In this document: piece by piece, positions 33,262-33,834 of the stretch
How the letters are laid out: each line of letters starts with the position of its first letter
Position numbering within the stretch: position 1 is the stretch's first letter
Assembly (NCBI RefSeq): GCF_009730595.1
Contig: NZ_CP046276.1
Location: 434,001-498,000, forward strand
Source: Spiroplasma tabanidicola
Lineage (GTDB): Bacteria; Bacillota_I; Bacilli_A; Mycoplasmatales; Mycoplasmataceae
DNA: 64,000 nucleotides
Direction: 5' to 3'
Program-made: the position numbers and the translations under genes
The notes under the pieces: generated by a model
What the model was told of the DNA's origin: nothing
What the model saw: the letters and a program-made list of their open reading frames with translations, nothing else
Database searches by the model: none

Positions 33262-33834
33262 ATGGAAAAGAATGACTTTAAAAATTATATTGAAAACTTA
33301 ATAAGGTTAGCTAAAGATTGTCAAGAAAATTGTGAAAAAGCTAATGAAAAATGTCAGAACAATATACATCGTATTGTTGATAATATTGATATTTGCGAAA
33401 ATGGTAAAGAAAAATGTGATTGTATTTATCATAAAAGATTATATGAATTATCAAAAGATTATGAAAAAATTATTAAAGATTTCACAAATGAAACTACAAA
33501 AAAAACTTTTGGTACTTTTGATGAAACTTTTAAAGGTTTTCGAAATATTTTTACAAAGAAAAATAAAGAAGAAAATATTAATTCAGAAGAAATAAAGTGC
33601 AAAAAAAATAAAAAACACAAATTTAAAAAAGAATATAAATTTGTAGAAGAAGACTTCGACGACTCGTTATTTGACTTTAAAAATTTACAAGAAGATTATG
33701 ACGATTTAAAAGAAGACTTCGACAATTTAAAAGAAGATCTTGATGATTTACAAGAAGACTTTGAATATTTAAAAGATGAACTTGAAGATTTAAAAGAAGA
33801 ATTCAAAGATCTAAAAAGAGATTTTAAAAACTAA
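33262..33834 (+). CDS. Cysteine-rich / heptad-repeat coiled-coil protein in the dnaK operon
   Basis: A 190-residue protein of unknown function. Residues 1-60 hold six cysteines at 20, 24, 31, 45, 52 and 54, the middle (about 105-125) is Lys-rich, and residues about 128-190 are a near-perfect heptad repeat built on the unit (L)KEDFDD. The repeats predict a long acidic coiled coil. The ATG at 33262 is preferred; another in-frame ATG at 33244 would add six residues. The gene stands between grpE and dnaK, where Firmicutes have nothing, and no terminator separates it from dnaK. Six clustered cysteines are unusual for a mollicute cytosolic protein. Confidence 0.7.

Follow-up and report, generated by a model that had tools for sequence, protein, structure and literature searches.

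The DNA analysed here, called the window in the following, is a stretch of 64,000 nucleotides from a contig of 1,284,335 bp that is read with genetic code 4. The species is a Spiroplasma of the Apis clade, a label which rests on its near relative S. helicoides TABS-2 (G037). The heat-shock genes of the window are found in the order clpB, hrcA, grpE, a 65-aa ORF, a 190-aa ORF, dnaK and dnaJ. The features around the 190-aa ORF are listed below. G036 is the second genome of the family in which this gene was detected.

31265-31291, plus strand: CIRCE-like HrcA site ahead of hrcA, departing from the degenerate pattern at one base and from the strict consensus at three
31327-32346, plus strand: hrcA, heat-shock repressor (Pfam HrcA, 7.6e-43)
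32349-33017, plus strand: grpE (Pfam GrpE, 9.5e-39)
33029-33226, plus strand: 65-aa orphan ORF in the same gap as the Cys gene, with a homologue in G037
33262-33834, plus strand: Cys-cluster/coiled-coil gene (Cys gene), open frame of 190 aa in Spiroplasma code 4
33319-33432, plus strand: codons for C20, C24, C31, H36, C45, C52, C54 and H57, the conserved C6H2 cluster; the G036 ortholog has the same residue at each of the eight positions
33655-33831, plus strand: C-terminal coiled coil of eight heptads (residues 132-190), from the heptad register, the tandem repeat and the predicted helix
33876-35675, plus strand: dnaK (Pfam HSP70, 7.2e-237)
35738-36913, plus strand: dnaJ as judged from its sequence, with a Cys-rich zinc-finger region after the J domain

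A sequence-only reading of this DNA had placed the Cys gene between grpE and dnaK, which is correct. It had also described an insertion in the dnaK operon; this holds for the 190-aa gene, while the second insert, the 65-aa ORF, which has no match in Pfam or NCBIfam, had been overlooked. The 190-aa frame uses no TGA from its ATG at 33262, and an earlier ATG at 33244 is an alternative start which would add the residues MKWEKI. Among 3,000 Markov copies of the grpE-dnaK gap the longest ORF had 136 codons and 190 aa was never reached, which puts its length beyond chance; the ORF is real. Its codon use is ordinary and its ribosome-binding site is weak, consisting of GAG only; of the 43 start sites listed for the window, 26 have a Shine-Dalgarno match of at least 4 bases.

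DnaK was detected in 60 of 60 family genomes, and with the surrounding stretches from the 59 others the distance between grpE and dnaK was measured in each. The gap spans 11-61 bp in 55 of the 60 genomes, so the junction is normally empty, as had been supposed. Long gaps are found in the window (858 bp), G036 (744 bp), G037 (233 bp), G054 (320 bp) and G003 (267 bp). An ortholog of the Cys gene is present in one other family genome, G036, within the same gap and with the N-terminal cysteines and histidines kept, which means that the gene has a homologue beyond this strain, contrary to the refuting case that the sequence-only reading had named. Homologues are not widespread in the chaperone operons of the Entomoplasmatales; the gene is confined to these two species. 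The tree of HrcA, GrpE and DnaK has the topology ((window, G036) 1.0, G037) 0.992, with G036 as the sister species of the window and G037 (S. helicoides) as the next outgroup. Given that the gap is empty in nearly all relatives, the DNA arrived as an insert, and since it measures just tens of bases in most other relatives, the Cys gene was not born in place from older spacer DNA. In the simplest history the Cys gene was gained before the window species and G036 diverged. The 65-aa ORF, whose homologue lies in the grpE-dnaK gap of G037, was most simply gained before the window species, G036 and G037 split and was later lost by G036.

An unrelated ORF of 84 aa occupies the same gap in G054 (Mesoplasma seiffertii, L034:3307-3558) and in G003 (L044:3298-3549). 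It terminates in TCGCGExAxILVYxWR, and its family has matches in 46 of the 320 genomes of the order, including G000 at C1:1196824, with the listed places scattered. Besides its operon copy, G036 has a second, divergent DnaK of 494 aa in L069 (G036:C1:652000-658500). This gene adjoins one for a protein of 510 aa whose N-terminal part has hydrophobic stretches and whose C-terminal end is J-domain-like, and the pair is flanked by two similar membrane-protein genes. A second DnaK match was also detected in G040 (G040:C1:561898-562485).

The cysteines of the 190-aa protein are located at positions 20, 24, 31, 45, 52 and 54, exactly the six within the first 55 residues that had been counted before, plus one at 113. 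Of the 45 window proteins checked, only DnaJ and an orphan at 51287 have as many or more cysteines in a 55-residue stretch. Aligning the N-terminal 90 residues of the window and G036 proteins showed 29 identical residues at 87 aligned positions (33%), among them all six cysteines and both histidines, which has a probability of P = 7e-5 under random placement; outside the Cys/His positions the identity is 27%. The conservation of all eight residues at this probability suggests that the feature under constraint is a metal site or paired thiols, and the C6H2 residues are candidate zinc ligands. Rough NG86 counts on the same domain (dN 0.56, dS 1.27) are consistent with mild purifying selection. 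A single-sequence structure model gave low-confidence helices for the Cys region, and Foldseek found no meaningful fold match for it, all matches having a probability of 0.12 or less.

The orphan mentioned above is a second Cys-rich protein of 203 aa (51287-51898, plus strand), encoded directly upstream of tig, with the N-terminus MCCNCKDNILNNCSCSIYEVECNLNCCWCC and ten cysteines within the first 31 residues. Within the genus group 18 of 20 genomes have homologues, and the family's other genera have none. The pattern MCCxC...NCxC...C...CCWCC is kept in the six proteins compared, and tig lies downstream of the homologue in three of the relatives examined. The protein has no Pfam family.

The C-terminal tail of the 190-aa protein had been described as about nine near-perfect acidic heptads. 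The heptads are real, and there are eight full ones plus three residues. The a positions are F, F, Y, F, L, F, L, F and (F), the d positions are S followed by seven times L, the g positions are always D or E and the e positions mostly K or Q. The tail thus follows the hydrophobic a/d pattern of heptads, and its a/d score was reached by none of 100,000 tail shuffles. The helix at residues 129-189 is the sole confident part of the structure model, with the confidence lying in its second half. At the DNA level the tail is a 21-bp tandem repeat of 6.9 copies with 75% matches. The repeat is old and diverged, so that recent slippage is not evident, and the length variation between strains that had been suggested finds no support in it. 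Both the window and the G036 tail are acidic and share 34% identity (21 of 62 aligned positions), and the perfect heptads of the window tail are not kept likewise in G036.

We searched for further homologues of the Cys protein and found none beyond the window and G036 among 320 genomes of the order, none among 395 genomes drawn from the class, none in plasmids or phages, none in a GTDB contig scan with exact patterns and none in Pfam, NCBIfam, PHROGs or PDB sequences. No homology to co-chaperone, zinc-protein or redox families was found. PADLOC returned one weak match (E 0.0081), which we do not take as real. Matches of the full protein to Pfam families (FlaC_arch, YtxH, ZapB, spectrin and others) were all below the cut-offs, lay mostly on the coiled coil and reflect composition, while the PDB sequence matches were mostly designed helical proteins. 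The weaker homology matches, from G052, G054 and G032, belong to other heptad repeats that lack the Cys cluster, and the weak order-wide matches of the N-domain that we read (G119, G042, G044, G075, G048, G023, G028 and G246) do not have the Cys pattern and were taken as chance. A literature search for an insert of this kind found none.

The CIRCE-like site before hrcA has near-palindromic arms and is overlapped by a promoter-like TTGACT-17-TACACT; G036, G037 and most relatives have counterparts at this locus. Further CIRCE-like sites precede clpB (29029 and, weaker, 29079) and lon (53297-53323, one mismatch to the degenerate pattern). In S. melliferum, degenerate HrcA sites have been reported at the hrcA, clpB and lon promoters, and one heat experiment showed no induction of the HrcA regulon; the dnaK CIRCE promoter of that species, which is more degenerate than the one in the window, was not heat-induced (PMC5138195). 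The terminator scan between grpE and dnaK found no site. Together with the CIRCE-like site before hrcA, this makes it likely that the Cys gene is co-expressed with DnaK. In its gene order hrcA-grpE-dnaK-dnaJ and in having CIRCE-like sites ahead of hrcA, clpB and lon, the window agrees with the HrcA/CIRCE dnaK operon, with HrcA sites as described in S. melliferum (PMC5138195). It differs by two additional ORFs in the grpE-dnaK gap, which 55 of the 60 family genomes do not have. This is a real, clade-restricted variant of the known operon.

Two other products of the operon resemble the Cys protein in part. GrpE, the long-helix dimeric nucleotide exchange factor of DnaK, is likewise encoded in this operon and has a long coiled coil, but the Cys protein has an added Cys cluster and an acidic tail, and a GrpE domain is not among the Pfam matches shown for it (the neighbouring GrpE was detected in the same scan) nor found with the N-domain alone. 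With the DnaJ zinc-finger co-chaperones it shares a Cys cluster and the location in the dnaK operon; in contrast to them it has no J domain by Pfam, no HPD in its sequence and no CxxCxGxG repeats.

We tentatively propose, as the preferred reading, that the Cys gene is a young, clade-restricted accessory gene of the HrcA/CIRCE operon whose product is an oligomeric stress accessory in the DnaK network. It would have entered the hrcA-grpE-dnaK-dnaJ operon, which is under HrcA/CIRCE control, ahead of the split between the two sister species, and would be co-transcribed with dnaK. The N-terminal helical module with its conserved C6H2 would most likely bind one or two zinc ions or serve as a thiol switch, followed by a lysine-rich linker and the coiled-coil tail, whose acidic g positions, basic e positions and Phe/Leu core would suit parallel self-association. 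Such a product would most likely serve the DnaK network as an oligomeric holdase or adaptor. In favour of this reading count the length of the intact ORF, the sister-species ortholog with its conserved Cys and His, the dN and dS values, the CIRCE-like sites, the lack of a terminator hit, the empty gaps of nearly all relatives and the heptad register. Against it count the lack of homology to any co-chaperone, zinc or redox family, the occurrence in two species only, the weak ribosome-binding site, the low-confidence model of the Cys region with no meaningful fold match, and the three changes of the CIRCE from the strict consensus together with the missing heat induction in S. melliferum. The gene, its orthology, the Cys/His conservation, the heptads, the synteny and the CIRCE-like site were observed, and from them we infer the co-transcription, the metal or thiol binding and the oligomerisation. 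Best supported is a co-expressed oligomeric protein with a C6H2 module for metal or thiols; an accessory function for DnaK is a guess from gene position only, and the link to DnaK clients is guessed too. A co-chaperone or redox role, as suggested by the sequence-only reading, is only plausible, and a direct link to Hsp70, redox sensing, scaffold action and heat induction found no support here. The most specific version, in which an oligomeric co-chaperone of recent origin, gated by zinc or thiols, works with DnaK in one small Spiroplasma clade and represents a young family of Hsp70 partners, is rather unlikely.

About equally likely as the DnaK-accessory reading, and a serious possibility in its own right, is that the gene is a selfish or neutral, fast-evolving orphan in a tolerant grpE-dnaK spot, carried along on the transcript, with a Zn- or Cys-binding product whose role is unrelated to chaperones. 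This role might be metal buffering, a membrane or cytoskeleton scaffold or host interaction. The junction does accept unrelated inserts, namely the 65-aa ORF in the window and G037 and the 84-aa ORF, a member of a scattered family, in G054 and G003, and the narrow distribution, fast evolution and weak ribosome-binding site of the Cys gene would also fit a neutral orphan. Against this reading, the frame has remained unbroken in the two species since they diverged, all Cys and His of the N-terminal region are conserved, and the gene is retained within a tightly packed stress operon.

Less probable is a redox-switched holdase of the Hsp33 type, zinc-bound and inactive when reduced, which oxidation or heat would activate and which would pass its clients to DnaK. 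The Cys/His cluster with its CxC, the adjacent dnaK and the CIRCE-like control fit this, and Hsp33 (HslO) also combines a Cys-rich zinc/thiol module with a helical region in a stress context. However, the Cys protein has no Hsp33 homology, with no match to an Hsp33 domain in Pfam or NCBIfam, and differs in the order of its modules and in its Cys spacing, as the zinc motif of Hsp33 is spaced differently. A replacement is disfavoured because a true Hsp33 is found in 60 of 60 family genomes (in the window genome at C1:16737-17564), leaving no gap to fill. Finally, it is highly improbable that the frame, with its simple-sequence tail, is spurious or in decay and not a functional gene: the low-complexity tail, the weak ribosome-binding site and the occurrence in two species only would fit it, but 190 open codons stand against the chance maximum of 136 in 3,000 trials, codon use is ordinary, dN is below dS and the ortholog keeps the Cys and His residues.

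Nearly all relatives have a tightly packed junction of grpE and dnaK, yet two orphan genes were inserted and kept there in the clade of the window species. Should the Cys protein act with DnaK, it would represent an Hsp70 partner of recent birth, and the sister species would show a chaperone network gaining a member. If it does not, the locus would illustrate the fixation of orphan genes within an essential stress operon.
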